Source of the DNA: an uncultured Oscillospiraceae bacterium
Lineage (GTDB): Bacteria; Bacillota; Clostridia; Oscillospirales; Oscillospiraceae
Direction: 5' to 3'
Length of the DNA: 24,197 bases
Assembly: GCA_934659475.1 (NCBI GenBank)
Contig: CAKUHX010000007.1
Location: forward strand, 1-24,197
In this document: piece after piece, positions 2,234 to 23,904 of the stretch
How positions within the stretch are numbered: position 1 is the stretch's first letter
Layout: every line of letters starts with the position of its first letter
Notes under the pieces: model-generated
Seen by the model: the letters and a program-made list of their open reading frames with translations, nothing else
Databases searched by the model: none
What the model was told of the DNA's origin: nothing
Translations under genes and position numbers: made by a program

Positions 2234-2261
2234 GAGCAATAGGATACCGGAGGAATCACCC

Positions 2262-3611: not shown

Positions 3612-3613
3612 AC

Positions 3614-4339
3614 GTGGCCAATTTCAAGATCTATCCCCTTCATGTGGGCGACCTGAACCGGCAGAAATCCAATCTGGCGTTTATGCAGGCCCCGGGCGTG
3701 AAAATTGATTTCCCGCTTATCTGCTGGTACCTGACTGATGGGGTACACCACATTATGGTGGACACCGGCGGCGTTGCGCCGGATGGCCGCTGGCAACCCT
3801 ATACCCGTACACCGGAGCAGCATCCCGCGGCGGCGCTGAAGCGCATGGGCGTGGACCCGAAGGATATTACCACCGTGATCCTTACGCACCTGCACTGGGA
3901 TCATTCGGGCAACAACGATCTGTTCCCCAACGCAAAGTTCTATGTTCAGCGGCGGGAGATCGAGGAGGCGAAGAATCCTCCGGTGAAAATATTTGCCGGG
4001 TCCTATGACTCGGCGGAGGTATTCAAAACCCCCTATATCGCGCTGGAGGGCGACAGCCAGATCATGGATGGTATCCGTGTGATCACCACCCCGGGTCATA
4101 CCCTGGGCTCCCAGTCCGTTGTGGTGGATACGGAGGCCGGCCCCCACGTCATTGCCGGCGATCTGATCGGTCTGCTGGAGTGCTATGAGCACGACCCCAT
4201 GTTCGTCAACGGAATTCATATCGATCTGCGGGATTACTTTGCCAGCATGGAGCGTGTGAAGGCCATTGGCGGCGTCGTGTTGCCGGGACACGATTATTGT
4301 GTGTTTGAGCACAGTGCCTATCCTGTGCAGAAAGTGTGA
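3614..4339 (+). CDS. Metallo-beta-lactamase-fold hydrolase, N-acyl-homoserine-lactonase-like
   Basis: The 241-residue protein carries the full metal-binding set of the lactonase branch of the metallo-beta-lactamase fold: HLHWDH at 92-97, His162 in TPGHT, Asp183 in AGD and His226 in PGHDY, giving a dinuclear metal site. The GTG start at 3614 has AGGAGG at 3601-3606, inside the end of the preceding gene, so the two are translationally close. The family includes quorum-quenching lactonases but many members open other lactones. Located within a carboxylic acid catabolic operon, a role in opening a lactone form of the substrate or an intermediate is more likely than quorum quenching. That is inference from context. 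Confidence 0.85.
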   Translation: MANFKIYPLHVGDLNRQKSNLAFMQAPGVKIDFPLICWYLTDGVHHIMVDTGGVAPDGRWQPYTRTPEQHPAAALKRMGVDPKDITTVILTHLHWDHSGNNDLFPNAKFYVQRREIEEAKNPPVKIFAGSYDSAEVFKTPYIALEGDSQIMDGIRVITTPGHTLGSQSVVVDTEAGPHVIAGDLIGLLECYEHDPMFVNGIHIDLRDYFASMERVKAIGGVVLPGHDYCVFEHSAYPVQKV

Positions 4340-4379
4340 TTCGGCTATGATTAGGCCAAGATGTTAAAGGAAGTGCAGT

Positions 4380-5531
4380 ATGTACAGCCCTGAAATGGAA
4401 CGGATTCCCTGCGTGATCATGCGCAGCGGAACCAGTAAAGGCATTTACCTTCTCAGTAACGATCTGCCCGCGGATCCCGAGACCCGGGACAAGGTCATCC
4501 TTTCTATCTTCGGCAGTCCGGACAGCCGTCAGATCGACGGCCTGGGCGGGGCCGATCCCCTGACCAGCAAGTTAGCAGTGATCGGTGTATCCTCCCGCGA
4601 GGATGCCGACATTGACTATACCTTTGGTCAGGTGGAGATCAACGCCCCCCGCGTAGATTATTCCAGCAACTGCGGAAACATCTCCGCGGGAGTCGGCCCC
4701 TTCGCTATTCAGCAGGGACTGGTGAAGGCCGTGGAGCCGGTGACCACCGTGCGCATCTACAACACCAACACCCAGAAGGTGTTTGTGGCCGAGGTGCCCG
4801 TCAAGGACGGCAAGCCCCAGGCGAAGGGCGGCTATAAGATGGACGGCGCGCCCGGAACCGGCGCCCGCATCGGCATCAACATGGCCGGCACCATCGGTGC
4901 CAAGACCGGACGGCTGCTGCCCACAGGTAATCCCATGGATACACTGGAGATTAAGAGCTTTGGTTCCCTGTCCGTGTCCATGCTGGACGCCGGCAGTCCT
5001 ATGGTGTTCGTCCGGGCCAAGGATCTGGGCCTGGAGGGTACCGAATCTCCCCGCCAGATCGACGGCAACCCCCGGATGCTGGAACTGCTGGAGGAGATCC
5101 GCACCACTGCGGCGGTGGTCATGGGCATCGCTCCCGATCAGGAGACCGCCCGCACCAAGATCCGCGCGGTGCCCATGGTGGCGTTCGTCTCTCCTTCTCA
5201 GGACTACGCCAGCCATATTGACGGGGCTGCCGTCTCGGCGGACGAAATCGACTTCGTTTCCCGTGACATGTTCATGGGGATCATGCACAAGACCTATTCC
5301 GGCACGGCCACGGTCTGTACCGGCTGCGCCGCGGTGACCCCCGGCACCATCGTCAACGAGGCTATGGGCAGGACCATAACCGACGGTATGGTGCGGATCG
5401 GCCACCCAGGCGGCATCATTGAGTGCGATATGAGCGTCCGGGACGGAAAGATCGTCAAGGCGGCTTACGGCCGCACCGCCCGCAGGATCATGGAGGGCTA
5501 CGTCTACGTGCCCCGTGAGATCCTGGACTGA
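4380..5531 (+). CDS. PrpF/3-methylitaconate isomerase-like C=C isomerase
   Basis: This 383-residue protein belongs to the PrpF family (two diaminopimelate-epimerase-like halves). Members move a double bond: PrpF isomerises trans- to cis-aconitate-type acids, Mii of Eubacterium barkeri interconverts 3-methylitaconate and dimethylmaleate, and GalD tautomerises oxalomesaconate. The N-terminus RIPCVIMRSGTSKGIY and SSNCGNISAGVGPFAI are family hallmarks. Lys64 (TSKLAV) and Cys98 (SNCGN) are 34 residues apart, the same spacing as the catalytic Lys/Cys pairs described for PrpF and Mii. The ATG at 4380 follows AAAGGAAG. The lyase and aconitase-type hydratase genes downstream match the Mii-Dmd-Dml set, so an isomerisation of an itaconate- or aconitate-type acid is likely; the exact acid is not resolved. 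Confidence 0.88.
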   Translation: MYSPEMERIPCVIMRSGTSKGIYLLSNDLPADPETRDKVILSIFGSPDSRQIDGLGGADPLTSKLAVIGVSSREDADIDYTFGQVEINAPRVDYSSNCGNISAGVGPFAIQQGLVKAVEPVTTVRIYNTNTQKVFVAEVPVKDGKPQAKGGYKMDGAPGTGARIGINMAGTIGAKTGRLLPTGNPMDTLEIKSFGSLSVSMLDAGSPMVFVRAKDLGLEGTESPRQIDGNPRMLELLEEIRTTAAVVMGIAPDQETARTKIRAVPMVAFVSPSQDYASHIDGAAVSADEIDFVSRDMFMGIMHKTYSGTATVCTGCAAVTPGTIVNEAMGRTITDGMVRIGHPGGIIECDMSVRDGKIVKAAYGRTARRIMEGYVYVPREILD

Positions 5532-5562
5532 GGGCGGAACCATTGATCACAATGCCCTGACT

Positions 5563-5604
5563 CCCGTGTCGCTCCGCATTCCTTCGAAAGCGGAGCGATA
5601 CGGG
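5563..5604 (+). promoter_or_regulatory. Long hairpin inside the catabolic operon
   Basis: Arms 5563-5577 and 5590-5604 pair over 15 bp with one G.U wobble around a 12-base loop. No T-run follows, and the next gene has its own AAAGGAG site about 20 bases further on. It may be an mRNA processing or stabilising element between the isomerase and lyase cistrons, or a partial attenuator. Confidence 0.7.
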
Positions 5605-5639
5605 AAGATCGGGAGCAATGCAAAGGAGTGCTTTGAATT

Positions 5640-6554
5640 ATGAGAGCTACAAGTGGAAAGTCCGGCGCGCAGGTGCTGCGCGAGCGTCTGAAGAAGCCCG
5701 AGATCCTGGTGGCCCCCGGCGCCTATGACTGCCTGTCCGCCCGTCTGGTGGAGAAGATGGGCTTCGAGGCCGCGTTCATGACCGGCTTCGGCGCGTCTGC
5801 CTCCATTCTGGGTCAGCCCGACTACGGCCTGATGACCATGAACGAGATGGCCACCGTCTGCGCCAATATGAACTATTTTCTGAACATCCCCCTGATCGGC
5901 GACATCGACACCGGCTACGGCAACCCCTTGAACGTGTTCCGCACGGTTCGGGAGTTCGAACGCGCCGGCATGGCCGCCGTCCATCTGGAGGATCAGGTGT
6001 TCCCCAAGCGCTGCGGCCACATGGAGAAGAAGGCCGTTATCCCCATGGAGGAGCATGTGGAGAAGATCCGCGCCGCTGTGGAGGCCCGGGATGAGATGAT
6101 GATCATCGCCCGTACCGATGCCTATGCCACCCACGGCCTGGATGAGACCATGCGCCGTCTGGAGGCCTACCGCGATGCCGGTGCCGACATCATCTATGCT
6201 GACGGCCTGCCCACTGTGGAGGCCATGAAGGCTGTCTGCTCCATCCCCGGCGTCTACAAGTTCGGCAACCAGGTCGAGGGCGGAAAGTCCCCCACCCTGA
6301 GCTTCGAGGAACTGCAGGAGATCGGCTATGACATCGTGATTTACCCCGTGGGCACCGCCTTTGCCGCGGAGCGGGCCATTGAGAACTATCTCAAGAGTCT
6401 GAAGGAGACCCACTCCAACGGTGAGATCATCTCCTCCGGCTCCGTCCCCAGCTTTGCTGAGTTCAACGCCGTGGTTGGCATGGGCGCCCTGACCGACATG
6501 GAGAAGCAGTTCCAGGTGGACGTGTTCAAGAAGAAGCACAACGAGGAGAATTGA
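5640..6554 (+). CDS. Isocitrate lyase/PEP mutase superfamily lyase (methylisocitrate or 2,3-dimethylmalate lyase-like)
   Basis: The 304-residue protein has the compact length of the methylisocitrate lyase/dimethylmalate lyase/oxaloacetase branch. It has the metal-binding GDIDTGYG segment (87-94), HLEDQ at 115-119 and the mobile active-site loop KRCGH at 123-127 with the catalytic Cys125, which marks true C-C lyases rather than PEP mutases. Such enzymes retro-Claisen-cleave a 2-hydroxyacid into a 2-oxoacid plus a carboxylate. It lies between the isomerase and the aconitase-like subunits, as expected for the last carbon-cleaving step of one pathway. The Eubacterium barkeri Dml enzyme (2,3-dimethylmalate to pyruvate and propionate) is the best functional parallel; PrpB is the alternative. 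An AAAGGAG precedes ATG 5640. Confidence 0.88.
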
Positions 6555-6585
6555 TCCCAGCCCAAAGCAGAAGGGAGATCGTGCC

Positions 6586-7848
6586 ATGGGCATGACAATG
6601 ACACAGAAAATCTTCGCCCGGCACTGCGGTGCGGAAAGTGTGGCTGCGGGCGAACTGATCAATGCCAAGCTGGATCTGGTGATGGGCAGCGACGTGACCG
6701 CGCCCATCGCCATCCAGGCGATGGAGACCCACGGGCTTGACAAGGTGTTTGACCCAGACAGGATCGTGCTGGTCATGGATCACTTTGCCCCCAACAAGGA
6801 CATCCAGGCAGCGCGTAACTGCGCTACCTGCCGGGCCTTTGCACAGAAGCACGGGATCCGGAACTTCTATGACGGCGGTCGGATGGGCATCGAGCACGCG
6901 CTGCTGCCTGAGCAGGGCTTTGTGGCCCCCGGTGAGCTGATCATCGGCGCGGATTCCCACACCTGTACCTACGGGGCGCTGGGGGCGTTTTCCACCGGCA
7001 TCGGCTCTACGGACATGGCCGCCGGCATGTATGCCGGCGAGAGCTGGTTCAAGGTGCCCAAGGCTATTCAGGTGGAACTGACCGGTCGGTTCCCGGAGTT
7101 TGTGGGCGGTAAGGACGTGATCCTGACGCTGATCGGGATGATCGGCGTGGACGGCGCCCGATACATGAGCATTGAGTTCACCGGTGACGCCATTAAGGAC
7201 ATTTCCATTGACGACCGGTTTGCCATTTGCAACATGGCGATCGAGGCCGGCGCCAAGAACGCCATTTTCCCGGTGGATGAAGTTACCCTGGAGTATCTGA
7301 AGGGCCGTGTAGACCGCCCCTATACCCCGGTGGAGCCTGATCCCGACGCCGAGTATGAGAAGACCATCCGGATGGATCTTTCCCAGCTGAAGCCCGTGGT
7401 GGCCGCGCCCCACCTGCCCTCCAACGTCAAGCCGGTGGAGGAGTATGTGGGTCTGCCGGTGGATCAGGTGATCATCGGCTGCTGCACCAACGGCCATATC
7501 ACGGATCTGCGCCAGGCGGCTCAGATCCTGCGGGGCCACAAGGTGGCTCCCAGCGTGCGCTGCACCATCATTCCCGCCACACCAACCATTTACCTCCAGG
7601 CTATGGAGGAGGGGCTGCTGGAGCTGTTCATCCGCGCCGGCGCCACTGTGTCCATGCCCACCTGCGGCCCCTGCAACGGTGGCCATGTAGGCGTGCTGGC
7701 GGACTACGAGCGGTGCGTTTCCACCACCAACCGGAACTTTGTGGGTCGGATGGGGGCCAAGACCTCTGAGGTCTATCTGGCCAGTCCCGCCGTGGCGGCG
7801 GCCTGCGCCGTGGCCGGCGTGATCATTACGCCCGGGGAGGTGATCTGA
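6586..7848 (+). CDS. Aconitase-type hydratase large subunit (LeuC/HacA/DmdA-like)
   Basis: The 420-residue protein is a two-subunit-type aconitase-superfamily large subunit. [4Fe-4S] ligands are recognisable as Cys300 (CTNG), Cys360 and Cys363 (TCGPCNGG), and the [24 protein letters not shown] region is at 122-145. Members isomerise or hydrate isopropylmalate, homoaconitate, citramalate or dimethylmaleate. No other leucine gene is present (no leuA or leuB), and the neighbours are catabolic, so hydration of an unsaturated dicarboxylate made by the PrpF-like isomerase is more likely than leucine synthesis. ATG 6586 follows AAGGGAG; ATG 6592 is a possible alternative. The stop overlaps the start of the small subunit by one base (TGATG), indicating coupled translation of the heterodimer. 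Confidence 0.9.
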
Positions 7849-8327
7849 TGGCCGGAACTGTATTCAAGTATGGCAATAACGTGGACACGGACGTGATCCT
7901 GCCCGCGCGCTATCTGGCCCTGTATAAGGACGAGGATCTGGCGGCCCACTGCATGGAGGATCTGGACAGCGGCTTTGTGTCCGCGGTGCAGCCCGGTGAC
8001 TTCATCGTGGCCGGTGAGAACTTCGGCTGCGGCTCCTCCAGAGAGCATGCGCCCATCGCCATCAAGGCCAGCGGAATCCGTTGCGTGATCGCCGCGTCAT
8101 TTGCCCGGATCTTCTATCGCAACGCCATCAACATCGGACTGCCTATTGTGGAGAGCCCCGAGGCGGCCCGGGAGATCTGCGCCGGGGATCAGCTTGAGGT
8201 AGACATGGACGGCGGTGCAATCTATAATCGGACTCAGGACAAGTCGTACCGGTTCGGCGGCTTCCCCAAGTTCATTCAGGACATGGCGGACGCCGGCGGC
8301 CTGCTGGATTATCTGAGCAAGAAGTAA
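7848..8327 (+). CDS. Aconitase-type hydratase small subunit (LeuD/HacB/DmdB-like)
   Basis: This 159-residue swivelling-domain protein pairs with the preceding large subunit. The substrate-contacting segment [11 protein letters not shown] lies at 59-69 and the family opening [13 protein letters not shown] at 11-23. The loop that reads YLRT in typical isopropylmalate isomerases reads YLAL here (22-25), replacing the arginine position, which argues for a substrate other than isopropylmalate. Together the subunits should add water stereospecifically to the double bond of a maleate-, itaconate- or aconitate-type acid to give the hydroxy acid cut by the lyase encoded just upstream. Substrate is inferred, not shown. 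Confidence 0.9.
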
Positions 8328-8365
8328 GATCCCCGCACGGAGAAGCAGAGACTGGAGGAAACAAC

Positions 8366-9334
8366 ATGAAAATCGTGATTCTGGACGGGTATACGGAGAA
8401 TCCCGGCGATCTGAGCTGGGAGGGCCTGGAGGCTCTGGGCGAGCTGAAGGTATACGACCGGACGTCCTATGAGGAGTCCGACCTGATCGCCCAGCGCATC
8501 GGCGATGCGGACATCGTCCTGACCAACAAGACGCCCATCTCCAAAGCTACCATGGACAAGTGTCCCAACGTCAAAATGATCGCCGTTCTGGCCACGGGCT
8601 ATAACGTGGTGGACATCGCCTGCGCGAAGGAGAAGGGCATCCCCGTCTGCAACGTCCCCAACTACGGCGGCTATTCCGTCAGCCAGTTTGCCATAGCCCT
8701 GATGCTGGAGGCCTGCCTGCACATCGGCCATCACGACCAAACGGTGCACGAGGGCAAGTGGGCCAATAACATTGACTGGTGCTACTGGGATTACCCCCTG
8801 ATGGAGGTGGCCGGAAAGACTTACGGCCTGCTGGGCTGCGGCAAGATCGGCTATCACACGGCCGAGGCCGCGAAGGCCCTGGGCATGCATGTGATCGCCT
8901 TCGACAAATATCCATCTCAGGCTGCGAAGGATCTGGGCGTTGAGTTTGTGGAGCTGGACGACCTGTTTGCCCGGTCTGACGTTCTGGGACTTCAGATGCC
9001 CCTGATGGAGTTCAACACCGGCATCATCAACAAGGAGAACATCGCCAAGATGAAGGACGGCGTCATCATCATCAACAACAGCCGCGGCCAGATGGTGGTG
9101 GAGCAGGATCTGGCGGATGCCCTGAACAGCGGGAAGGTGGCCTTTGCCGGACTGGACGTGGTGTCCACCGAGCCCATCCGGGCGGACAACCCCCTGCTGA
9201 AGGCAAAGAACTGCATCATCACCCCCCATATGTCCTGGGGCTCCAGGAGCAGCCGCCAGCGCATCATGGACTGCACAGTGGATAACGTGAAAGCGTTCCT
9301 GGCCGGAAAGCCGGAAAATGTGGTCAACGGGTGA
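8366..9334 (+). CDS. D-2-hydroxyacid dehydrogenase (hydroxypyruvate/glyoxylate reductase-like)
   Basis: The 322-residue protein is a complete D-isomer-specific 2-hydroxyacid dehydrogenase. The nucleotide-binding GCGKIG motif is at 157-162 with Asp180 at the end of the second strand, suggesting NAD(H) preference. The catalytic triad is present: Arg240 (NNSRG), Glu269 (DVVSTEP) and His288 (TPHMSWGS). Such enzymes reduce 2-oxoacids such as hydroxypyruvate, glyoxylate or pyruvate to D-2-hydroxyacids. GGAGG precedes the ATG at 8366. The glycerate kinase gene follows after three bases, so the natural reading is hydroxypyruvate to D-glycerate followed by phosphorylation; pyruvate to D-lactate as an electron sink is the alternative. 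Confidence 0.92.
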   Translation: MKIVILDGYTENPGDLSWEGLEALGELKVYDRTSYEESDLIAQRIGDADIVLTNKTPISKATMDKCPNVKMIAVLATGYNVVDIACAKEKGIPVCNVPNYGGYSVSQFAIALMLEACLHIGHHDQTVHEGKWANNIDWCYWDYPLMEVAGKTYGLLGCGKIGYHTAEAAKALGMHVIAFDKYPSQAAKDLGVEFVELDDLFARSDVLGLQMPLMEFNTGIINKENIAKMKDGVIIINNSRGQMVVEQDLADALNSGKVAFAGLDVVSTEPIRADNPLLKAKNCIITPHMSWGSRSSRQRIMDCTVDNVKAFLAGKPENVVNG

Positions 9335-9337
9335 ACC

Positions 9338-10495
9338 ATGAAGAAGTGTATCGTGATTTCCGACTCCTTCAAGGGGTCGCTGTCCAGCGGCGAGATCTGT
9401 GACCTTGCCCGGGAGAGCTTTGCGCACATTCTGCCGGAGTGGCAGGTGGACTGTATCCCGGTAGCCGACGGCGGCGAGGGTACGGTGGCCTGCTTCCACG
9501 AGGTCTGCGGCGGAGAGCTGGTCACAGTGCCGGTGCGGGGCCCCCTGGGGCAGCCCATGACGGCGGACTATTTGCAGCTGTCGGGCGGACAGGCGGTCAT
9601 CGAGATGGCCTCCTGCGCCGGACTGCCCCTGATGGGGGATCGAAAGGACCCCTGCGGGGCCGGCACCTACGGGGTGGGGGAGCAGATTCGCCACGCCGTG
9701 GAGCGGGGGAACACCCGGATCCTGCTGGGCCTGGGCGGCAGCGCCACCAACGACGGCGGCTGCGGCTGCGCGGCGGCCCTTGGGGTGCGTTTTCTGGATG
9801 AGCGCGGGAGCACCTTTGTGCCCACGGGGGGCACGCTGGACCGCATCCGCACCGTGGATGTCTCCGCGGCCCGGGAGCTCTTGAAAAATGTGGAGCTGAC
9901 GGCCATGTGCGACATCGACAACCCCATGCACGGCCCCACCGGGGCGGCGTACATCTTCGGCCCCCAGAAGGGGGCGGATCCCGCCATGGTGGAGCTTCTG
10001 GACGGGCAGCTGAAGGCACTGGACCACATCTTCCAGAAGGCACTGGACAGGCAGGTGGCCGATGTGCCCGGCAGCGGCGCTGCCGGGGCCTTTGGGGCCG
10101 GCATACTGGCTCTGCTGGACGGGCGGCTGTGCCAGGGGATCCAGGCGGTGCTGGATCTGGTGGACTTTGACCGGCGGCTGGAGAGCTGCGAACTGGTGAT
10201 CACCGGCGAGGGGCGCTTTGACAGCCAGAGCATCCGGGGAAAGGTGATCAGCGGCGTGAGCGAACGGGCAAGGGTAAAGAAGGTGCCCGTTGTAGTGATC
10301 GCCGGAGGGATTGACCCGGAGATGGAGGCGGCCGCCGGGGGAGAACTGGGGATCTCCGCAGTGTTCTCCATCAACCGGCAGGCCATGGACTACTTCCAGT
10401 CCAGAGCCTTCAGCAGGGAGAACTACCGCTATACTCTGGACAATATCCTGCGGACACTGAAGCTCACCCGGACGGAGCGGATTACAACACTATAA
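9338..10495 (+). CDS. Glycerate kinase (GarK/GlxK family)
   Basis: The 385-residue product has the family signatures DSFKGSLSS at 9-17, PVADGGEGT at 41-49 and GLGGSATNDGG at 131-141. It phosphorylates D-glycerate with ATP; members of this two-domain family usually give 2-phosphoglycerate, which feeds directly into lower glycolysis. It begins three bases after the dehydrogenase stop without a clear ribosome binding site, so translational coupling is likely, and it is the last gene of the + strand cluster before a terminator-like hairpin. Its presence implies that the pathway makes glycerate. Confidence 0.93.
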   Translation: MKKCIVISDSFKGSLSSGEICDLARESFAHILPEWQVDCIPVADGGEGTVACFHEVCGGELVTVPVRGPLGQPMTADYLQLSGGQAVIEMASCAGLPLMGDRKDPCGAGTYGVGEQIRHAVERGNTRILLGLGGSATNDGGCGCAAALGVRFLDERGSTFVPTGGTLDRIRTVDVSAARELLKNVELTAMCDIDNPMHGPTGAAYIFGPQKGADPAMVELLDGQLKALDHIFQKALDRQVADVPGSGAAGAFGAGILALLDGRLCQGIQAVLDLVDFDRRLESCELVITGEGRFDSQSIRGKVISGVSERARVKKVPVVVIAGGIDPEMEAAAGGELGISAVFSINRQAMDYFQSRAFSRENYRYTLDNILRTLKLTRTERITTL

Positions 10496-10509: not shown

Positions 10510-10537
10510 CGGCGCCCCGACAAAAGCCGGGGCGCCG
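10510..10537. terminator. Bidirectional terminator-like hairpin between glycerate kinase and ddh
   Basis: A 9-bp perfect GC-rich stem (10510-10518 with 10529-10537) and a 10-base loop separate two convergent genes. On the - strand it is followed by TGTTTTGT; on the + strand only TT follows, so it looks stronger for the - strand ddh transcript. Confidence 0.7.
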
Positions 10538-10565: not shown

Positions 10566-11459
10566 TCAGACCAGAGACTGGATCAGATCCTTCCGCTCAC
10601 CAGGCAGCATATCCATCACGGGGATCTCCAGCATGGTGCGGGCGCCGGGGCCCTGTCTGGTTGCGGCGCGGGCGCAGGAGACCATGATCTGAGAGGTCAG
10701 AGCGGGGTTGTTGATGTTCATGGAGAAGGACATGTTCTGGTTGTCGGTGGTGCCGGAAACGCCCTTGCGGGTGAGCAGGACGGAGTGGCCGCGGTCCATC
10801 AGCTGAGCCACATCGTCGACCTGGAACACGTGGGTCTCGTCATGGACAAAGTAGGCATCGGCCTTGATGGCGGCCTCGACCTGCTTGAAGTCGGCGCCCT
10901 CCTTCAGCTGGACGTAGACCATGCGGCGGTGGATGCCCTCGCCCAGGGGGATGGTCATGCTCAGGGCGTTGGCAACGCCGGGAACGGCCTTGGCAGCCAC
11001 GGTGTGGCCCATGCTCATGCCGGGGCCGAAGTTGGTGTGGGTGATGCCGCGGGGCACGCAGGCCAGCATCAGGCCGCGGACGATGCTGTCGGAGCCCGGA
11101 TCCCAGCCAGCGGAGATGATGGCGCAGGCATTACCCTTGCGGGCGTGGGCGTCCATCTCCTGCAGGGTGTCCCACACGCCGTGCACATCGTAGGGGTCCA
11201 CGGTGTTGATGCCCAGTTCCAGATACTTGGGGGCCACCTTGGTGACCAGACGGGAGGGCACGCAGAGGATGGCCACGTCGATCTTGGCGTTGCCCAGATC
11301 TTCCAGCTGCTCCACGACCTTGATGCCGGTGAGGGAGAGGGTCTTGGCCTCGGGGCAGATGATGCCCACCAAGTCCATGTCAGGGGAAGCCTGAACGGCC
11401 TGGGCGCAGAAGGACCCGATGTTGCCGTAGCCGACGATAGCGACCTGGATCTTACTCAT
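10566..11459 (-). CDS. ddh: meso-Diaminopimelate dehydrogenase
   Basis: The 297-residue protein starts with a Rossmann motif (VAIVGYGNIGSFC, GxGxxG) and contains GWDPGSDS around residue 115 and NFGPGMSMGHTVAAKAVPGV around 140-160, both characteristic of diaminopimelate dehydrogenases. The enzyme reversibly converts meso-diaminopimelate to L-2-amino-6-oxopimelate (which cyclises to tetrahydrodipicolinate) and ammonia with NADP(H), either as a one-step lysine route or as a deaminating catabolic step. A longer reading frame exists, but AAGGAG at about 11468-11473 precedes ATG 11459, so I start there. It is the last gene of the - strand block after dapF and a symporter. The terminator-like hairpin upstream suggests it is at least partly uncoupled from the symporter gene. 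Confidence 0.85.
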   Translation of the reverse strand: MSKIQVAIVGYGNIGSFCAQAVQASPDMDLVGIICPEAKTLSLTGIKVVEQLEDLGNAKIDVAILCVPSRLVTKVAPKYLELGINTVDPYDVHGVWDTLQEMDAHARKGNACAIISAGWDPGSDSIVRGLMLACVPRGITHTNFGPGMSMGHTVAAKAVPGVANALSMTIPLGEGIHRRMVYVQLKEGADFKQVEAAIKADAYFVHDETHVFQVDDVAQLMDRGHSVLLTRKGVSGTTDNQNMSFSMNINNPALTSQIMVSCARAATRQGPGARTMLEIPVMDMLPGERKDLIQSLV

Positions 11460-11547
11460 AATAAACGCTCCTTTTCTGTTTTGCACAAAAAATGTGGTCT
11501 GCTTTAGACAAAAATGACAAAGCTGGGGAGAAAAAAGGTCAAAAGGG

Positions 11548-11578
11548 GGGAGAGCGCGCCTGAAAGGGGCGCTCTCCC
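11548..11578 (-). terminator. Terminator-like hairpin between the symporter gene and ddh
   Basis: Arms 11548-11557 and 11569-11578 form a perfect 10-bp stem. Read on the - strand it is followed by CCC and then TTTTGACCTTTTTT, a reasonable though interrupted U-tract. It lies after the symporter stop and about 90 bases before the ddh start, so it should end or attenuate transcripts coming from dapF-symporter. Confidence 0.65.
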
Positions 11579-11604
11579 ATTTTCAGTTAAGGATAGGGAA
11601 GAGA

Positions 11605-12849
11605 TCAGTTCTTGCCAGCCATGATCTTCTGCAGCCAATCCTTGCCTTCCACGAAGCGCTCCACGATGTAGCACACAACGTAGTCGCCGGCGGAGTTGAT
11701 CATGGTTGCGGGAGGATCGACCAGGTTGCCGATGGCCACCAGGATGGGGAAGGCCAGCTCCATCTGAGTGGGGAAGAAGATGGAGCAGATGATGTACTCG
11801 CCGATGTAGCCGCCGCCGGGCACGCCAGACATACCAACGGAGGACAGAACGGCCACCAGAACGATGAAGGGCAGGCGGGACCAGCTGAGCTGCTCGCCGA
11901 ACACGCCCAGCACGAAGGCGATCTTCAGCACGCAGGAGAAGCAGGAGCCGTCCATGTGCATGGTAGCGCCCAGGGGCAGGACCATGCCGGAGATGTCCTT
12001 GTTGATGCCGGTCTCGTCAGCTTCCTCGATGTTGGTGGGGATGGTAGCCACGGAGGAGCAGGTGCCCAGAGAGACAACAGCGGGACGGGCGATGTGGCTG
12101 AACATCATCTTAACGGCGCCCTTGCCGCCGCCGAACCAGGCGAACAGGGGGAAGGCGGTGAAGATGTAGATGAAGCACAGGGGATAGTACACGATCATGG
12201 CGCGGCCATAGCCCTCGGCAACGCTGGAGCCGTAGGTGGCGACCAGGTCGGCAAAGATGGCGAAGTAGGCGAGGGGGGCGTTGTAGGTGACGAGGTTCAC
12301 GAACTTCAACATCACCTCGGTCAGGCCGCTCACCCCCTGGCCGATGACGGAGTTCTTGCCGCCGGTCATCTGGACGGAGAAGCCGAACAGGATGGAGAAC
12401 ACGATCAGGGGCAGCATGGCCCGGCGGGACAGCAGGCCCACGAAGTCGCTGGAGGTGAAGAAGTTGACGATCAGCTCGGTCATAGAGGCGTGCTCGCCGA
12501 TCTCCTCAGCGGCCAGATCGGCCCAGGGGGACAGAACGGGGGGGAAGACCTTCATCAGCACGAACATGATGACGGCGGCGATGGCACCGGTGACCACGAA
12601 GGTGCCCACGGTGTAGCCCATGATCTTGCCGGCGCGCTCCTTGCTCTCCATGTTGGCCACGGAGCCAGCGATGGAAGCGAACACCATGGGGACCACGATG
12701 CAGAACATCATGTTGATAAACACGGTGCCCAGGAATGCGATGCTGTGACCGAAGTCGGGGGCGAACCAACCGACCAGGGCGCCTGCTACCATGCAGGACA
12801 GCAGGATGGCCAGGAAGCGGTAGTTCTTAGCTACGGATTTCTTGTTCAC
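11605..12849 (-). CDS. Dicarboxylate/amino acid:cation symporter (DAACS/GltP-type fold)
   Basis: The 414-residue membrane protein has the DAACS architecture: eight helices plus two re-entrant hairpins, with the serine-rich tip CSSVATIP and the conserved PLGATMHMDGS segment (NMDGT in glutamate carriers). In the last transport helix the segment VDPPATMINSAGD aligns with LDMGRTMVNVTGD of GltPh: the aspartate that binds the substrate amino group is kept, but the arginine that binds the acidic side chain is Ala. It is therefore probably a Na+-coupled amino acid importer that does not handle glutamate or aspartate in the usual way. I chose GTG 12849 because AAAGGAG precedes it by seven bases; an upstream ATG gives an unlikely 36-residue extension. 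It lies between dapF and ddh, suggesting a diaminopimelate-like substrate. Confidence 0.9.
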   Translation of the reverse strand: MNKKSVAKNYRFLAILLSCMVAGALVGWFAPDFGHSIAFLGTVFINMMFCIVVPMVFASIAGSVANMESKERAGKIMGYTVGTFVVTGAIAAVIMFVLMKVFPPVLSPWADLAAEEIGEHASMTELIVNFFTSSDFVGLLSRRAMLPLIVFSILFGFSVQMTGGKNSVIGQGVSGLTEVMLKFVNLVTYNAPLAYFAIFADLVATYGSSVAEGYGRAMIVYYPLCFIYIFTAFPLFAWFGGGKGAVKMMFSHIARPAVVSLGTCSSVATIPTNIEEADETGINKDISGMVLPLGATMHMDGSCFSCVLKIAFVLGVFGEQLSWSRLPFIVLVAVLSSVGMSGVPGGGYIGEYIICSIFFPTQMELAFPILVAIGNLVDPPATMINSAGDYVVCYIVERFVEGKDWLQKIMAGKN

Positions 12850-12885
12850 GATTAGCGCTCCTTTACAATAACAGTTTATTCCTAC

Positions 12886-12901
12886 TCCGGCGTGAGCCGG
12901 A
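12886..12901 (-). other. Short intercistronic hairpin between dapF and the symporter gene
   Basis: TCCGGC and GCCGGA flank a GTGA loop, giving a perfect 6-bp stem. On the - strand no T-run follows it, so it does not look like a terminator and dapF-symporter readthrough is expected. Confidence 0.45.
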
Positions 12902-12969
12902 AAAAGAATACGGTTTGGAAGGGGTGTGCTTATAAAATATGCGGGGGTGGGAAACAAGGAAACAAATCG

Positions 12970-13800
12970 TTACAGCTTCAGGTTTTCGTCTGTGATCTCG
13001 CCTTTGCAGACGATGTTGGTGGGTCCAGTCAGGAACAGGTCGCGGATCTGACCGCCTTCCCGGACCACGTCAATGGTCAGGGTGCCGCCGGTCATATCCA
13101 CTTTGACGTTCTTTCCGCTGACCTGACCCAGCAGAGTCAAAATGGCGACCACGCTGCCGGTGCCCGTTCCGCAGGCGTAGGTGAAATCCTCCACGCCGCG
13201 CTCGAAGGTGCGCTCCAGCAGATGATCCTCACCAAGGACCTCATAGAAGTTTACGTTGGCGCCCCGGGGAAAGCCCTTGTACCACCGCAGCTTGCGGCCC
13301 AGCTCACGCAGCTCATGCTCGTCCGCCTGGGCAAGGCCCTGATAGGGGACAACGGCGTGGGGCACGCCCACCACTGTGTAGGCACAGGGGATGATCCGGC
13401 CGTCGATCTCGGCCTTCACGTCCAGATCCGTGTCCAGGGGATCGTTCAGGCGGATACGGTAATTGCGCTGGTCGATGCGCCGGCCGGTCACGATGCCGGC
13501 GGTGGTCTCGATGATCTGCGTCTCGCCGGCCAGGCCGTTTTCGTAGCCGTAGCGGCAGATGCACCGGGCGCCGTTGCCGCACATCTCGCCCAGAGTTCCG
13601 TCGGCGTTGTAGAAGAACATCCTGTAGTCGCCGCCCTCGGTGGGCTTGTCCACTACCATAAAGCCATCGGCCCCCACGGACAGATGCCGCTCACACAGGG
13701 TCTTGGCCAGGTAAGAGAAGGACTCCTGGGGCAGATGCTCCTCTAAATTGTTCAGGATCACAAAGTCGTTTCCTGCGCCATTCATTTTCCAAAACTTCAT
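12970..13800 (-). CDS. dapF: Diaminopimelate epimerase
   Basis: The 276-residue protein has the normal DapF length and the two catalytic cysteines in their usual contexts: MCGNGARC in the N-terminal half and YACGTGTGS in the C-terminal half, preceded by the conserved FERGVED. The opening MKFWKMNGAGNDFVIL is family-typical. It interconverts LL- and meso-diaminopimelate without cofactor. An upstream in-frame start at 13941 lies upstream of the sigma-54 promoter and cannot be on that transcript; ATG 13800 has AAAGGAGGAG just before it. Its placement behind a sigma-54 promoter, with a symporter and ddh following, is unusual for a housekeeping lysine gene and suggests inducible use. A related amino acid epimerase is a less likely alternative. 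Confidence 0.9.
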   Translation of the reverse strand: MKFWKMNGAGNDFVILNNLEEHLPQESFSYLAKTLCERHLSVGADGFMVVDKPTEGGDYRMFFYNADGTLGEMCGNGARCICRYGYENGLAGETQIIETTAGIVTGRRIDQRNYRIRLNDPLDTDLDVKAEIDGRIIPCAYTVVGVPHAVVPYQGLAQADEHELRELGRKLRWYKGFPRGANVNFYEVLGEDHLLERTFERGVEDFTYACGTGTGSVVAILTLLGQVSGKNVKVDMTGGTLTIDVVREGGQIRDLFLTGPTNIVCKGEITDENLKL

Positions 13801-13888
13801 ATCGTCTCCTCCTTTCCCGAAAGTCCACGTCCGGGATAAGGCTCCCGAATGGGAAGCTGGCGCCTGAACTGTGTCTAAATTATGAATA

Positions 13889-13904
13889 AGCAAGCGGCGT
13901 GCCA
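13889..13904 (-). promoter_or_regulatory. Sigma-54 (-24/-12) promoter for dapF
   Basis: Read on the - strand the sequence is TGGCACGCCGCTTGCT, a full match to the sigma-54 consensus TGGCACG-N4-TTGCW, with GG and GC elements correctly spaced. Transcription would start near 13878, giving a leader of about 78 bases before dapF ATG 13800. The adjacent upstream gene encodes a sigma-54 activator. Confidence 0.92.
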
Positions 13905-14028
13905 AAGTTGAAATTATAGATTTCGAGGCAAAGATACACAAAATACGGAGCCAGATCTGTATATATCAACAAAAACAGAAACTGCGTTTTGGAACAGCAC
14001 ACAAAGAATGGAAAAGCAGGCGAAATAT

Positions 14029-14059
14029 AATTGGTCAAAGATAAATGCAATTGGTCGAA
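14029..14059 (-). promoter_or_regulatory. Tandem upstream activator sites (putative)
   Basis: AATTGGTCRAA occurs at 14029-14039 and again at 14049-14059, in the same orientation and exactly 20 bp apart, about two helical turns. They lie about 125 bp upstream of the -24 element, just past the stop codon of the activator gene, with an AT-rich stretch in between. Position and phasing are as expected for enhancer sites of a sigma-54 activator. Binding by the neighbouring regulator is inference. Confidence 0.65.
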
Positions 14060-14071
14060 AATGGATATGCA

Positions 14072-16138
14072 TCAACCATTTTCCGCCAGTTTTCGACCCT
14101 CCGGCGTCAGCTGGCTGCCGCCCCGGCCGCGGCTGACCCGCACCAGCCCCTGCTGGGCCATTTCGGCCAGCATGGCCCTCAGCTCCTGCTGGGACAGGGG
14201 GAAATAGGCCGCCCTGGCCGCCTCCAGGATCTTTTCCCGTCCGATGGCCTGATGCTCTTGGGAGGCCTGGTACAGCTGCTCCAGCACAAAGTGGAAGGCG
14301 GGGGCCTGCTGAAGGGTGGGGGACTGCTGTGCCGCGGGATGCTGGGGGCCGGCAGCGGGAACGGGGGCGGTCATGGTCTGCTGCAGGGTAGGGGGCAGGT
14401 CGGCCAGCGTGATCTCCCGGCTGTCCGTGTAGATCAGATACTCCACCACGTTGCGCAGCTCCCGGATATTGCCGGGCCAGGAGTAGCGGCGGAACAGCTC
14501 GTGCACCTGGGGGGAGAGGACAAAATTGCCCCCCAGCTCCTGCCGGAAGTGATCGGCCAGCAGGAACAGGTCGTCTCCCCGCTGGGACAGGGGCGGGATG
14601 ACCACCGGCAGGGTGGACAGGCGGTAGTACAGGTCCCGGCGGAAGGTGCCCTGCCGCACCATTTCCTCCAGAGACTCGTTGGTGGCCGCGATGATGCGCA
14701 CATCCACATGGATGATGTGCTTGCCGCCCACGCGCATGATCTCGCGCTCCTGCAGGGCGCGCAGCAGCATCACCTGGAGGGAGGCGCTCATGCCCTCTAC
14801 CTCGTCCAAAAACAGGGTGCCCTTGTGGGCAAACTCGAACAGGCCGGGCTTGCCACCCTTCCGGGCGCCGGTAAAGGCGCCCTCCTCATAGCCGAACAGC
14901 TCGCTCTCCAGCAGATTTTCCGGGAACGCGGCCACGTTGATGGCCACGAAAGGGCCGGAGGCCCGCCGGGATTCCCGGTGGATGCCGTGGGCGAACAACT
15001 CCTTGCCGGTGCCCGTCTCGCCGATGAGCAGCACAGGGCTCTCGCTGCGGGCCATCCGCCGCAGCACCTGCTTGGTGTGCTGGATGGCGTCAGACTGGCC
15101 GATCACATCGTCGAAGCTGTATTTGGCGTAGTGCCCCTTCTTGAACAGCTGGCTGCGCAGCTCGTTCTGGCGCTCCTCCATCTCGTTGAAGCGCTGCAGG
15201 ATGGCGAAGGCACCGATGCACTCGCTGCGGCGGATGACAGGAACGACCTCGACGCTCAGGTTGGCCCCGTTCACCTTGACCAGCCGCACGGGCAGGGGCT
15301 GGGTGCTCTGCAGGCACTCGGCGAAGGGGATATAGGGGAACAACTCGGTGCAGCGCTTGTTGTCGTTGATGGCGAAGGGCACGCCGGTCATATCCTGGGC
15401 GTTCTGGTTGCAGGCAAAGACCACGCCCTTTTCATTGATGGCGATCACGCCGTCCCGCAGGTTTTCCATCAGGATGTGGAACTGGCTCTCCAGGCGGATG
15501 GAGCGGGCGAACATCTGGTCAAAGCCGTAGTTGCTGGTGGCGATGGAGCGGAAGTAGGTCTGGAAGGACTCCGTCTCCAGCGTGTAGTCCAGCCCTAAGC
15601 GCAGGGCCAGCTCCACCACCATGCTGGTAGTGCAGGAACGCTGGCCCAGATTGATGGTGGTGTCGATCCACTCGGGGACGTAGCGCTCCTCGTCGGGGGT
15701 GACGGCGATGCGGATGTCCTCGTGGTCGGGCAGCTGAAGGCCGGGGTAATAGGAGATCCACTTGACGTGGTTGATGCCCAGCTGCTCCAGCTGGGACACC
15801 GCCTCCCGGGCCATGGTGGGGGTCATGTTGACGAACAGCACCTTGCTGCCCGCGGGGATCTCCTTCAAGCGGTCCAGGGTGTCCCAGCGGAAGGATACCT
15901 CGATCCACATAGTCTGGCTGCCCGGGGGAACGTGGCGGGCGAACTCTGCGGCGGAGCCGTATGCGTCGGTGGTGGCAGCGTAGACGTCGTAGGGGGGCAG
16001 CATCCCCGTAGCCGTGCCGTCCCACACGGAGAAAGTGTCCACCTGGGCCTCGTCGCCGAACAGGGGGCGAATATCCTCGGCGTAGGATTCGGCGGCCAGA
16101 AGATCCATACAGATCACAGCGATTTTTTTCTGTCTCAC
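14072..16138 (-). CDS. Sigma-54-dependent enhancer-binding transcriptional activator with PAS domain
   Basis: The 688-residue protein has an N-terminal sensory region of about 200 residues that I cannot name with confidence, a PAS domain at about 215-315, and an AAA+ domain at about 340-570 with Walker A GETGTGKE (373-380), the sigma-54 contact loop GAFTGA (420-425), Walker B LFLDE (442-446) and arginine fingers near 500-506. A Pro/Gln-rich linker (585-612) leads to a C-terminal region that resembles a winged helix (615-688, ending [16 protein letters not shown]) rather than the usual Fis-type helix-turn-helix. GTG 16138 is chosen because AAGGAGG sits seven bases upstream. It probably binds the tandem repeats after its own stop codon and activates the dapF promoter. 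The ligand is unknown. Confidence 0.93.
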
Positions 16139-18544: not shown

Positions 18545-18574
18545 TTACCACATCTTAACAACTGAATCAGCAGA

Positions 18575-18734
18575 GATAGAGGCGCGGACTTCATGCGTAC
18601 TCCGGGATACAGGCCAGGCAGCCGTCCCGGGGGAGAGGGGAGCCCGCCGAAGGACGGCCGGGTGCCTGCCCGGCTGATCCTGGGCCGCGGGATAAGATCC
18701 CGCGGACTGTCACGGTCAAACGTGGAGAGCTGTC
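18575..18734 (+). ncRNA. Lysine riboswitch (L-box)
   Basis: The leader contains the conserved elements of the lysine aptamer in order: GAGGCGC followed by GACTTCA, GGGGAG followed by CGCCGAAG, GGCTG, a perfect hairpin CCGCGGGAT-AAG-ATCCCGCGG, ACTGTCAC and GGAGAGCTGTC. GATAG (18575-18579) pairs with CTGTC (18730-18734) to close P1. Length (about 160 bases) is normal. Lysine binding should stabilise P1 and favour the downstream terminator, lowering expression of the transporter. Confidence 0.93.
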
Positions 18735-18762
18735 CGCTTCAAGTCCCCGCTCAGGGGAGTAA

Positions 18763-18845: not shown

Positions 18846-20462
18846 ATGACTGACCGCAGAGATCCCGTTCTTTTGGCTGCCGCCGGTGTGATCATCGCCG
18901 CCATGGCCATCCTTGTCCCCTTCACTGTAGAGAACACCTATGCCACCTTCTGGGCCCTGGTGCCCCCGGTGGTGGCCATCGGCCTGGCTCTGATCACCAA
19001 GGAGGTCTTTTCCTCCCTGTTCATCGGCATCGTGGTGGGCGGCATGTTCGCCTGCGGCGGCTCCGTGACCGCCGCCATCGACAACGTGGTCTCCACCGGC
19101 CTGATCAGCGCCGTAGAGGGCAGCGCCGGCATCTTTGTGTTCCTGGTCATCCTGGGCATCGCCGTGTCCCTGCTGAACCGGGCGGGGGGCTCCGCCGCCT
19201 TCGGCCGCTGGGCCAAGACCCATATCAGGACCCGGGTGGGCGCCCAGCTGGCCACCTTTGTGCTGGGCGTGCTGATCTTCATCGACGACTATTTCAACTG
19301 CCTGACCGTGGGCTCCGTCATGCTGCCGGTCACCGACGGACACCGGGTGTCCCGGGCCAAGCTGGCCTACCTCATCGACGCCACCGCCGCCCCCATCTGC
19401 ATGATCGCACCCATCAGCTCCTGGGCGGCCGCCGTGTCCAAGTTCACCGAGGGCACGGGACTGGACGGTCTGGGTCTGTTCATCAAGGCGATCCCCTATA
19501 ACTTCTACTCTCTGCTGACCTTTGTGTTCATCATCGGTCTGGTGGTGATGAACGCCGACTACGGCCCCATGGCTGTCCACGAGCGCAACGCCCAGGAGAA
19601 GGGCGACCTGTTCTCCACCAACGAGCGGGTGAGCGGTCAGGAGCTGGCGGCCAACCCCAAGGGCCGGGTGATCGACCTGGTGCTGCCCATCGTGGTGCTG
19701 GTGGCGGTGTCTGTGGTGGGCCTGATCTATGTGGGCGGCTTCTTCGGCGTGGACGCCTGGGGGGGCACCGAGTGTGCCGGTGATTTCGTGGCGGCCTTCG
19801 GCAACACCGACGCCTTCATCGGTCTGCCCTGGGGCGGCATTCTGGCTCTGGTGTTTATGATCGCCTATCTGATCTGCCGCCGTCTGCTTACCTTTAAGCA
19901 GGCCATGGACTGCGTGCCTCAGGGCTTTATCTCCATGGTGCCCGCCATCACCATTCTGACTCTGGCCACCTCCCTGAAGAACATCTCCAACGATCTGCTG
20001 GGCTCCGCCTCCTATGTCGAGGCCCTGATGCGCAGCGAGTTTGCCCAGAGTCTGGCCAACTTCCTGCCCGCGGTGATCTTCATCGTGGCCTGCCTGCTGG
20101 CCTTCGCCACGGGCACCAGCTGGGGCACCTTCGGCATCCTGATCCCCATCGTCTCCAATATGTTCGGGGCGGAGGACCCCCTGCTGTACATCGGTATGTC
20201 CGCCTGTCTGGCCGGCGCCGTGTGCGGCGACCACTGCTCCCCCATCTCCGACACCACCATCATGTCCTCTGCCGGCGCCCAGTGCGTCCATGTGATCCAT
20301 GTGTCCACCCAGCTGCCCTATGCTGTCACCGTGGCTGCGGTGAGCTTTGTGTGCTTCCTGCTGGCGGGCTTTGTGCAGAACGTGGTGCTCTGCCTGGCCG
20401 TGGGCGCGGCCCTGATCCTGGGCTTCCTGTTTCTGATGAAGCGCAGACAGGGAAAAGCGTAA
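18846..20462 (+). CDS. lysW: NhaC-family transporter under lysine riboswitch control (LysW-type lysine transporter)
   Basis: The 538-residue membrane protein has many hydrophobic segments and NhaC-family features such as SSLFIGIVVGGMF, FIDDYFNCLTVGSVM and ATAAPICMIAPISSWAA, and GDHCSPISDTTIMSSAG near residue 465. NhaC-like proteins are called Na+/H+ antiporters by default, but members preceded by an L-box, as here, were predicted by comparative genomics to be lysine transporters (LysW). The riboswitch therefore argues for lysine uptake; export or Na+/lysine antiport cannot be excluded. GAGGAG precedes ATG 18846; an in-frame ATG at 18771 lies inside the terminator stem and is unlikely to be used. 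Single-gene unit, ended by a 16-bp hairpin. Confidence 0.88.
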   Translation: MTDRRDPVLLAAAGVIIAAMAILVPFTVENTYATFWALVPPVVAIGLALITKEVFSSLFIGIVVGGMFACGGSVTAAIDNVVSTGLISAVEGSAGIFVFLVILGIAVSLLNRAGGSAAFGRWAKTHIRTRVGAQLATFVLGVLIFIDDYFNCLTVGSVMLPVTDGHRVSRAKLAYLIDATAAPICMIAPISSWAAAVSKFTEGTGLDGLGLFIKAIPYNFYSLLTFVFIIGLVVMNADYGPMAVHERNAQEKGDLFSTNERVSGQELAANPKGRVIDLVLPIVVLVAVSVVGLIYVGGFFGVDAWGGTECAGDFVAAFGNTDAFIGLPWGGILALVFMIAYLICRRLLTFKQAMDCVPQGFISMVPAITILTLATSLKNISNDLLGSASYVEALMRSEFAQSLANFLPAVIFIVACLLAFATGTSWGTFGILIPIVSNMFGAEDPLLYIGMSACLAGAVCGDHCSPISDTTIMSSAGAQCVHVIHVSTQLPYAVTVAAVSFVCFLLAGFVQNVVLCLAVGAALILGFLFLMKRRQGKA

Positions 20463-22614: not shown

Positions 22615-23904
22615 GTGGAGCGGGTGATCTTTCACTGCGATCTGAACAGCTTTTACGCGTCAGTGGAGCTTTTGAGCCACCCGGAGCTGCGGCATCTGCC
22701 CGTGGCGGTGTGCGGCGACCCCAAGAGCCGCCACGGCATCATTCTGGCGAAAAATGAGCCCGCCAAGCGCTTCGACGTAAAAACGGCGGAAACGGTGTGG
22801 CAGGCAAAGAAAAAGTGCCCCGACCTGGTGCTGCTGCCCGCCCACCACGAGAAGTACCGGGAGTACTCCCGCCGGGTGAACGGGCTGTATCAGCAGTATA
22901 CCGACCTGGTGGAGCCCTTCGGCATCGACGAGAGCTGGCTGGACGTCACCGGCACCCTGCACTTGTTCGGCGGCGACCCAAAGGCCCTGGCGGATGAGAT
23001 CCGCAGCCGGGTGCGGCGGGAGCTGGGGCTGACCATCTCCGTGGGGGTGTCTTTCAACAAGGTGTTTGCAAAGCTGGGCAGCGACTATAAAAAGCCGGAT
23101 GCCACCACCGTGATCACGGAGGAGAGCTTCCGGGCCATGGTGTGGCCCCTGCCGGTCACCGACCTGCTGTATGTGGGCCGGGCGGCGGCATCCGCTTTTC
23201 AAAAGTTCGGTATCCGCACCATCGGGGATCTGGCCGCCTTTGACCGCCAGGCCCTGTTCACCCTGCTGGGGAAGAACGGCGCCCAGCTCCACGACTTTGC
23301 CAGCGGCCTTGACCGGGCCCCCGTGGCCCCGGCGGGACAGGCGGAGCCCCCCAAGTCCATCGGCAACGGCCTGACCTTTCCCCGGGATCTGCAGGGGGCG
23401 GAGGAGATCCGGGCGGGGATCGTCATGCTGGCCGACCAGGTGGCCGCCCGCCTGCGGCACCACGGGATGAAGTGCGGCGGGGTGGCCCTGGCCATCCGGG
23501 ACCCCGGATTCCGGGACATCAGCCGCCAGCAGCGGCTGACGGTGCCCACCTGCCTGGGCCGGGAGATCGCAGACAGTGCATGGCAGCTGGCCCGGAGCTG
23601 CTGGAGCATGGACAGCCCGGTGCGGGCCCTGACGGTGACTGCCCTGTATCTGCTGCCAGCGGAGGAGGCGGGGACCCAGCTGGACCTGTTCGGCGGGCAG
23701 GAGCAGGAGAAGCGGGAGCGGCTGGAGAAGCTGGCCGCGGCGCTTTACGGCAGGTCTCCACACTGCCGCACCGCCAGTCAGGCGGGATTCCTCCTTCAGT
23801 TGGCCTCCCGCTCCCTAAGGAGTGGAGTAGAGAACGGGGGTTTGTTTGGGGAACGCTCCTCATATTATACCACAGGGCGGAGAAAATGGGAAGCGGTTTT
23901 GTGA
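22615..23904 (+). CDS. dinB: DNA polymerase IV (Y-family, DinB)
   Basis: The 429-residue protein is a Y-family polymerase: catalytic Asp9 in FHCDLNSFYASVE, the DES active-site residues Asp105-Glu106 in GIDESWLDVTG, and SVGVSFNKVFAKLGSDYKKP in the palm. A helix-hairpin-helix-type TIGDLAAFDR follows, and the QLDLF clamp-binding motif is at 355-359. It performs translesion synthesis with the sliding clamp. GTG 22615, after a purine-rich GGAGAGAGGGGGG, is taken as the start because upstream codons lie in the promoter. After about residue 378 the tail no longer looks like DinB C-termini and is Ser/Arg-rich, suggesting a frameshift or replaced 3' end; the catalytic core is intact. Confidence 0.9.
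   Translation: MERVIFHCDLNSFYASVELLSHPELRHLPVAVCGDPKSRHGIILAKNEPAKRFDVKTAETVWQAKKKCPDLVLLPAHHEKYREYSRRVNGLYQQYTDLVEPFGIDESWLDVTGTLHLFGGDPKALADEIRSRVRRELGLTISVGVSFNKVFAKLGSDYKKPDATTVITEESFRAMVWPLPVTDLLYVGRAAASAFQKFGIRTIGDLAAFDRQALFTLLGKNGAQLHDFASGLDRAPVAPAGQAEPPKSIGNGLTFPRDLQGAEEIRAGIVMLADQVAARLRHHGMKCGGVALAIRDPGFRDISRQQRLTVPTCLGREIADSAWQLARSCWSMDSPVRALTVTALYLLPAEEAGTQLDLFGGQEQEKRERLEKLAAALYGRSPHCRTASQAGFLLQLASRSLRSGVENGGLFGERSSYYTTGRRKWEAVL
23864..23892 (-). promoter_or_regulatory. Possible promoter antisense to the dinB 3' end
   Basis: On the - strand TTCCCA (23887-23892), a 17-base spacer and a perfect TATAAT (23864-23869) are present. No recognisable gene follows on that strand; it could be an antisense RNA start or a leftover from an inserted sequence. 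Confidence 0.3.

Follow-up and report, generated by a model that had tools for sequence, protein, structure and literature searches.

Why would genes for two enzymes of diaminopimelate (DAP) metabolism be placed, together with an amino acid symporter gene, behind a sigma-54 promoter? The question is raised by a 24,197-nt stretch of DNA from an uncultured Oscillospiraceae bacterium (GenBank assembly GCA_934659475.1, contig CAKUHX010000007.1), the whole of which is called the window here. On its minus strand, between positions 10566 and 16138, lie in this order a gene encoding a sigma-54-dependent activator or enhancer-binding protein (EBP), a -24/-12 site, dapF, a gene encoding an SDF symporter, and ddh. 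An initial annotation, made from the sequence without database searches, had proposed this very set running in one direction, and every member of it was found in the order proposed. We consider, with moderate confidence, that the module is best explained as an inducible operon for DAP salvage.

In the mechanism that we hypothesize, the EBP would bind the tandem repeats located behind its own gene, sense DAP or a related compound and open the -24/-12 promoter, and the symporter would take up DAP released by other bacteria. DapF, whose family assignment is clear, would then interconvert LL- and meso-DAP, and Ddh, likewise firmly placed in its family, would oxidatively deaminate the D-centre of meso-DAP to give ammonia, NADPH and L-2-amino-6-oxopimelate/tetrahydrodipicolinate. 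Tetrahydrodipicolinate could be fed back into the synthesis of lysine or DAP, or could be degraded. In most of the sigma-54-linked relatives described below, LysA would take the place of Ddh and release lysine and CO2. LysA and Ddh both act at the D-centre of meso-DAP, and since the alternating last enzymes use this same end of the molecule, DAP is their simplest common substrate. The earlier suggestion that the module gives ammonia and NADPH or feeds lysine synthesis is narrowed: as the usual partner in the sigma-54 relatives is lysA, the general output is probably lysine, and Ddh, with ammonia, NADPH and tetrahydrodipicolinate as products, is probably a local variant.

Architecture of the module

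The features of the module are listed in Table 1.

Table 1. Features of the sigma-54-linked module in the window
Feature	Position	Strand	Evidence and remarks
Sigma-54-dependent activator (EBP)	14072-16138	-	PF00158 229 bits; 688 aa, GTG start
Two tandem 20-bp repeats holding GACCAATT, candidate enhancer (upstream activating sequence, UAS)	14023-14062	-	80% identical, spacing 20
-24/-12 (sigma-54) promoter TGGCACGCCGCTTGC	13890-13904	-	Exact consensus, ~90 bp before dapF
dapF, module-clade diaminopimelate epimerase homologue, 276 aa	12970-13800	-	TIGR00652 204 bits
SDF (DAACS) amino acid:cation symporter, 414 aa, GTG start	11605-12849	-	PF00375 289 bits
ddh, meso-diaminopimelate dehydrogenase, short type II-like form, 297 aa	10566-11459	-	TIGR01921 305 bits
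Intrinsic-terminator-like hairpin, 12 pairs, probable operon end	10510-10537	-	3' of ddh

The sigma-54 architecture expected by the initial annotation is supported by the sigma-54 domain of the EBP and by the exact -24/-12 site before dapF. The exact pattern TGGCACGNNNNTTGC has a single match in the window and was present in 4 of 100 shuffled sequences (mean 0.04). A looser -24/-12 pattern was rejected as evidence from the window by itself, its one match being equalled in 46 of 100 shuffles; with that pattern at chance level, the case for the promoter rests on its position and its conservation. A weak sigma-70-like match (9/12) also precedes dapF at 13969-13940, the region containing two such matches, compared with 1.5 in shuffled sequences. 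The tandem repeats follow directly upon the stop codon of the EBP gene, 119-158 bp upstream of the -24 element, and AACCTATT/AACCAATT repeats, read by eye, adjoin related EBPs. The region scan listed no terminator-like hairpin between dapF, the symporter gene and ddh; the five terminator-like sites of the region are not above the shuffles (mean 4.5). A scan of the window with Rfam gave no match inside the module, and a lysine riboswitch (87 bits) lies outside it at 18569-18740 (+), which supports a control of the module other than by such a riboswitch.

The EBP is composed of an N-terminal region of about 215 residues, a PAS domain, the AAA+ sigma-54 domain and AAA_lid_14. Residues ~1-215 gave no Pfam match, and the C-terminal part no match to a Fis-type helix-turn-helix (HTH). 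A model of the N-terminal domain (predicted local distance difference test, pLDDT, 82) had no match in the PDB at E <= 0.001, and so offers no hint of the ligand. Among the 120 relatives listed for residues 1-330, 118 display 58-66% identity.

The window DapF, well above the TIGR00652 cut-off of 115 bits, has both catalytic cysteines, in the motifs MCGNG and ACGTG, and the DapFs of the module and its relatives form one side of a branch with 100/100 support that separates them from six other DapFs. Fusions of CarB with DapF, 1343-1345 aa long, were encountered in three genomes (G001, G003 and G023; L161:892-4923, L162:1130-5167 and L163:848-4885; here and below, G and L numbers are our handles for genomes and loci); the first catalytic Cys of their DapF part is replaced by Ala (MAGNALRC), two of the three having been scanned against NCBIfam. 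The SDF domain of the symporter, like the sigma-54 domain of the EBP, scores well above its curated cut-off. The symporter is probably the importer of DAP, a role that we infer from its gene neighbors.

The window Ddh exceeds the TIGR01921 cut-off of 181 bits and finds its best PDB relatives in 3wb9, 8i78 and 8hp0. Of 400 genomes from the G002 family, 6 encode the short type II-like form and another 45 only a more distant one (33-39% identity). The next named relatives of the window Ddh are from Bacteroidales, at ~60% identity, which suggests that the gene may have been acquired by transfer. Matches to the window-type ddh and to the symporter gene (>=95% identity) were found on contigs of equal size in five cases, two of them of 2.5 and 3.0 kb, and jittered control lists shared 0.66 contig sizes on average, with a maximum of 5 in 2000; the close relatives of the window thus keep ddh beside the symporter gene. 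A sixth shared size, 1432 bp, was dropped, being too short for both genes. According to PMC7084900 the Ddh reaction is reversible, and for this reason its direction in the window is deduced from the neighboring genes.

Conservation of the locus

A profile built from 13 close symporters was used to scan GTDB and retrieved 486 relatives, the best 80 of which, residing in 79 loci, were analysed, so that the counts below describe close relatives. Some of the 79 loci end at contig edges and some are near-copies (L016/L048 and L019/L020); genes were called with a codon-score caller, calling by longest open reading frame having been discarded because of spurious antisense genes. In 49 of the 79 loci a dapF gene precedes the symporter gene on the same strand at a distance of no more than 400 bp; in five it is further off, and one locus has no room for it. 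The gene lysA stands 3' of the symporter gene in 23 loci, including all 18 in which an EBP of a second type (602 aa, with a Fis HTH) is encoded upstream, and its products score ~400 bits with TIGR01048. The commoner sigma-54 arrangement is therefore EBP-(dapF)-symporter-lysA, and the window belongs to the conserved dapF-symporter core, with a different EBP and a different last enzyme.

Sequence features of sigma-54 control extend to these relatives. A strict -24/-12 site was found between the second-type EBP gene and the first gene in 15 of the 18 loci, and when every locus was compared over the same span, up to 400 bp from the first gene, such a site was present in 13 of the 18 versus 2 of the 61 others, 59 of which offered at least 100 bp of sequence; in one of the two control loci with a site (L014) the contig starts just before it, and in the other (L072) it falls inside a called gene. 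A palindromic element is found between the stop codon of the second-type EBP gene and the first gene in 12 of the 18 loci, its pattern having been picked after the sequences were viewed and having 528 matches in 1.05 Mb. Of the 24 relatives' genomes that were searched, behind 25 of the 79 loci, 20 have a detectable rpoN, including all 14 whose locus has a second-type EBP gene upstream; the rpoN-negative genomes G001, G006 and G013 have no EBP gene at the locus.

At two loci a protein combining Cu_amine_oxidN1 with a YkuD L,D-transpeptidase domain is encoded directly before the symporter (L127:4490-5329, minus strand; L058:7073-7921, plus strand), a possible link to peptidoglycan.

DAP and lysine routes in the relatives' genomes

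In the same 24 genomes the genes for DAP and lysine synthesis were sought, with a threshold of E 1e-15 for dapA and with DapL singled out by TIGR03542 and not by TIGR03540; the dapB search under-reports, giving none in 11 of the 24 genomes, among them G001 and G024 in spite of their dapA and ddh genes. Neither dapA nor dapB was found in seven genomes (G008, G010, G011, G012, G013, G016 and G019), the DapL search gave nothing in these seven, and Ddh was over its cut-off in a single one of them (G013). Nevertheless, all seven have the module dapF and six the module lysA, and LysA would in that case need DAP from outside; G010 and G011 also have a further LysA-like match below cut-off. MurE with a DNPR motif, which we take to mark the DAP-type enzyme, is encoded in four of the seven, G010-G013, all of one genus, while no MurE was over the cut-off in G008 and G016 and that of G019 is without the motif. 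Across 32 genomes of the genus to which G010-G013 belong, a dapA match was obtained in 8, two of them over the cut-off, which indicates that the absence extends beyond a single assembly.

A housekeeping DAP route separate from the module was found in two of the 24 genomes. G017 (L042) has, besides an EBP-dapF-symporter-lysA module, a glnA-like gene, dapF, dapL and a second lysA, its DapL scoring 626 bits with TIGR03542 and its separate dapF product being 35% identical to the best module reference. In G018, which is Flavonifractor plautii, an asd-dapA-dapB set and a classical Ddh (L167 and L164) are present, by virtue of which this organism can make meso-DAP without DapF. In addition, G020 has a separate dapF-dapL pair, and its module is without dapF.

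Evidence against salvage and alternative explanations

A number of observations weigh against DAP salvage and are given here beside the alternatives on which they bear. At the level of the locus, the symporter gene occurs without dapF in 24 of the 79 loci; ddh is near it in one, L002, where the order is ddh-dapF-YkuD-symporter and no EBP gene is present; three of the 18 sigma-54 loci (L019, L020 and L058) show no strict -24/-12 site; and in G021 (L060) the second-type EBP gene lies downstream of lysA, with no rpoN match and no strict site. Thus, of the DAP module put forward in the initial annotation the pairing of dapF with the symporter gene stands and ddh as a conserved part does not, and the conservation of gene order and promoter that was to be checked holds for a part of the relatives. 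It might be argued that the symporter transports some unrelated amino acid, its pairing with these genes being loose co-regulation, as the 24 loci without dapF would suggest, eight of them having an AraC-like gene (by eye) instead. Given a dapF directly upstream in 49 loci and a lysA downstream in all 18 with one type of EBP, we regard this as very improbable.

At the level of the genome, 12 of the 24 genomes (G007, G008, G010, G011, G012, G014, G015, G016, G018, G019, G022 and G024) have no dapF and no lysA over the cut-offs besides those of the module, and the gene absences described above come from draft genomes, their completeness being not known. The earlier proposal that a second, housekeeping dapF be sought elsewhere in the genome met with a mixed result, G017 having one and these twelve, F. 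plautii included, having that of the module and no other over the cut-off. Six of the twelve have dapA, accompanied in G015, G018 and G024 by a classical Ddh, for which DapF is dispensable, and by neither Ddh nor DapL in G007, G014 and G022 (acyl routes were not searched); in the latter three the module DapF may serve the cell's own synthesis. These sole copies, together with the six dapA genes, fit an explanation in which sigma-54 controls lysine or cell-wall biosynthesis, DapF, LysA or Ddh working for the cell's own synthesis and the symporter carrying lysine, a precursor or an unrelated amino acid. The same explanation would accommodate G001, where a module-type LysA (62% identity) is encoded beside ddh and an aspartokinase-like gene (by eye), and G002, which has dapL with the module dapF as its only dapF. 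We nevertheless find it rather unlikely, for Ddh and DapF would be redundant within one synthesis route, G017 keeps a separate dapF-dapL and lysA set, seven genomes with the module gave neither dapA nor dapB, and the lysine riboswitch of the window sits elsewhere.

The nature of the substrate may also be questioned. The substrate loop of the window DapF reads GVPH, as opposed to GNPH in all six other DapFs, the Asn of which is presumably a residue of the substrate loop, and the DapFs of the module relatives mostly have GNPGIPH or GDPGLPH, a longer and rearranged loop; with its loop so altered, the module DapF may differ in specificity. Likewise, the symporter is only 22% identical to the cystine importer TcyP and 23% to SstT, and the Arg of transmembrane helix 8 (TM8) in GltPh and TcyP is Ala in the window protein, by which a possible contact to the distal carboxylate would be lost; with this low identity and this Ala, it does not fall among the TcyP-type cystine importers. 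Furthermore, a sister module in Flavonifractor, located beside relatives of the window EBP, looks like one for the use of sulphur amino acids, which makes a lanthionine- or cystathionine-type substrate a real rival. According to this rival, a DAP analogue, a sulphur-containing bis-amino acid (lanthionine, cystathionine or cystine) or a mixture would be imported, DapF epimerising the analogue and the DAP enzymes acting on a part of it. In its favor, besides the DapF loop, a pyridoxal phosphate-dependent enzyme of the D-cysteine desulfhydrase family (PALP fold, scoring under the curated cut-offs set for the named families) is encoded near the symporter in 9 of the 79 loci; in L050, L058 and L059 the neighbors of a relative of the window EBP include a PatB C-S lyase and an SDH_alpha gene in divergent orientation, the latter with a -24/-12 site of its own; and L050 (11090-17242) also has a 47%-identical SDF paralogue and a RidA-like protein. 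In E. coli, moreover, DAP shares one of the two uptake systems for cystine, the passages on this in PMC4383340 not specifying the protein. On the other hand, LysA, with its TIGR01048 score, and Ddh are DAP enzymes and the window module has no C-S lyase gene, and we judge an analogue improbable as the substrate.

DAP salvage therefore remains the explanation that we prefer. A wider proposal, which we advance only tentatively, is that a sigma-54-controlled system for DAP uptake and use, with LysA and Ddh interchangeable, is widespread in gut-associated Clostridia, and that in at least one genus it has become the sole source of DAP, the synthesis of DAP having been lost and a DAP-containing peptidoglycan still being built from what neighbors shed. 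If so, peptidoglycan-derived DAP would be a nutrient whose use is regulated and whose importer family is named, DAP auxotrophy would tie the cell-wall synthesis of some bacteria to their neighbors, the missing transporter of the 'LysA only' genomes discussed below would be supplied, and a testable inducer would be at hand for a new group of clostridial EBPs.

Other features of the window

A row of adjacent genes at 353-10495 (+) encodes a TRAP transporter subunit, PrpD/MmgE, a lactonase-like hydrolase, a PrpF-like isomerase, PrpB-like, LeuC/LeuD-like and hydroxyacid dehydrogenase proteins (these three names given by eye) and a glycerate kinase, and resembles an operon for the breakdown of a sugar acid or a tricarboxylate. 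The lysine riboswitch at 18569-18740 precedes a gene of the Na+/H+ antiporter family (18846-20462), perhaps a lysine transporter. A malK-I RNA match of 78 bits, at 23640-23845 (-), is antisense to the end of a DinB-like gene (by eye).

Comparison with known systems

The window symporter shares its family, SDF, with TcyP/YdjN (PMC4383340), the identity and the TM8 Arg setting the two apart as described above. The window Ddh is similar in length to type II enzymes such as StDAPDH (PMC7084900; PDB 3wb9), which is also its best PDB match, and of the seven type II cofactor residues listed it matches four, one of the remainder being the type I letter and two being neither, as read from the alignment; unlike StDAPDH-type enzymes, as presented there, it is encoded together with dapF and a transporter in a sigma-54 operon.

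In the human gut, Ashniev et al. 2022 (PMC9026213) recognized a 'LysA only' variant, A1, comprising 14 genomes with LysA and no DAP synthesis, for which salvage of DAP was proposed. The passages concerned with that proposal name no importer, epimerase or regulator, and these would be supplied by the present module. As regards sigma-54 control, Nie et al. 2019 (PMC6615313) described 39 groups of clostridial EBPs and the sigma-54-dependent amino acid catabolic operons of Clostridiales. With these operons, as described there, the module shares an EBP gene, a -24/-12 site, an upstream enhancer (a candidate in the window) and genes for amino acid use, and the CdsR-cdsB and XcyR-malY groups resemble the neighbouring module of F. 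plautii. In Table 1 of that paper dapF, ddh and lysA are not among the targets of the 39 groups, and neither 'symporter' nor 'diaminopimel' occurs in its main text; among the open-licence papers listed by our searches, none describes this operon, to judge from the listings. The module thus appears as an EBP-controlled amino acid operon of the kind already described in Clostridiales, with DAP as its probable, and new, substrate.

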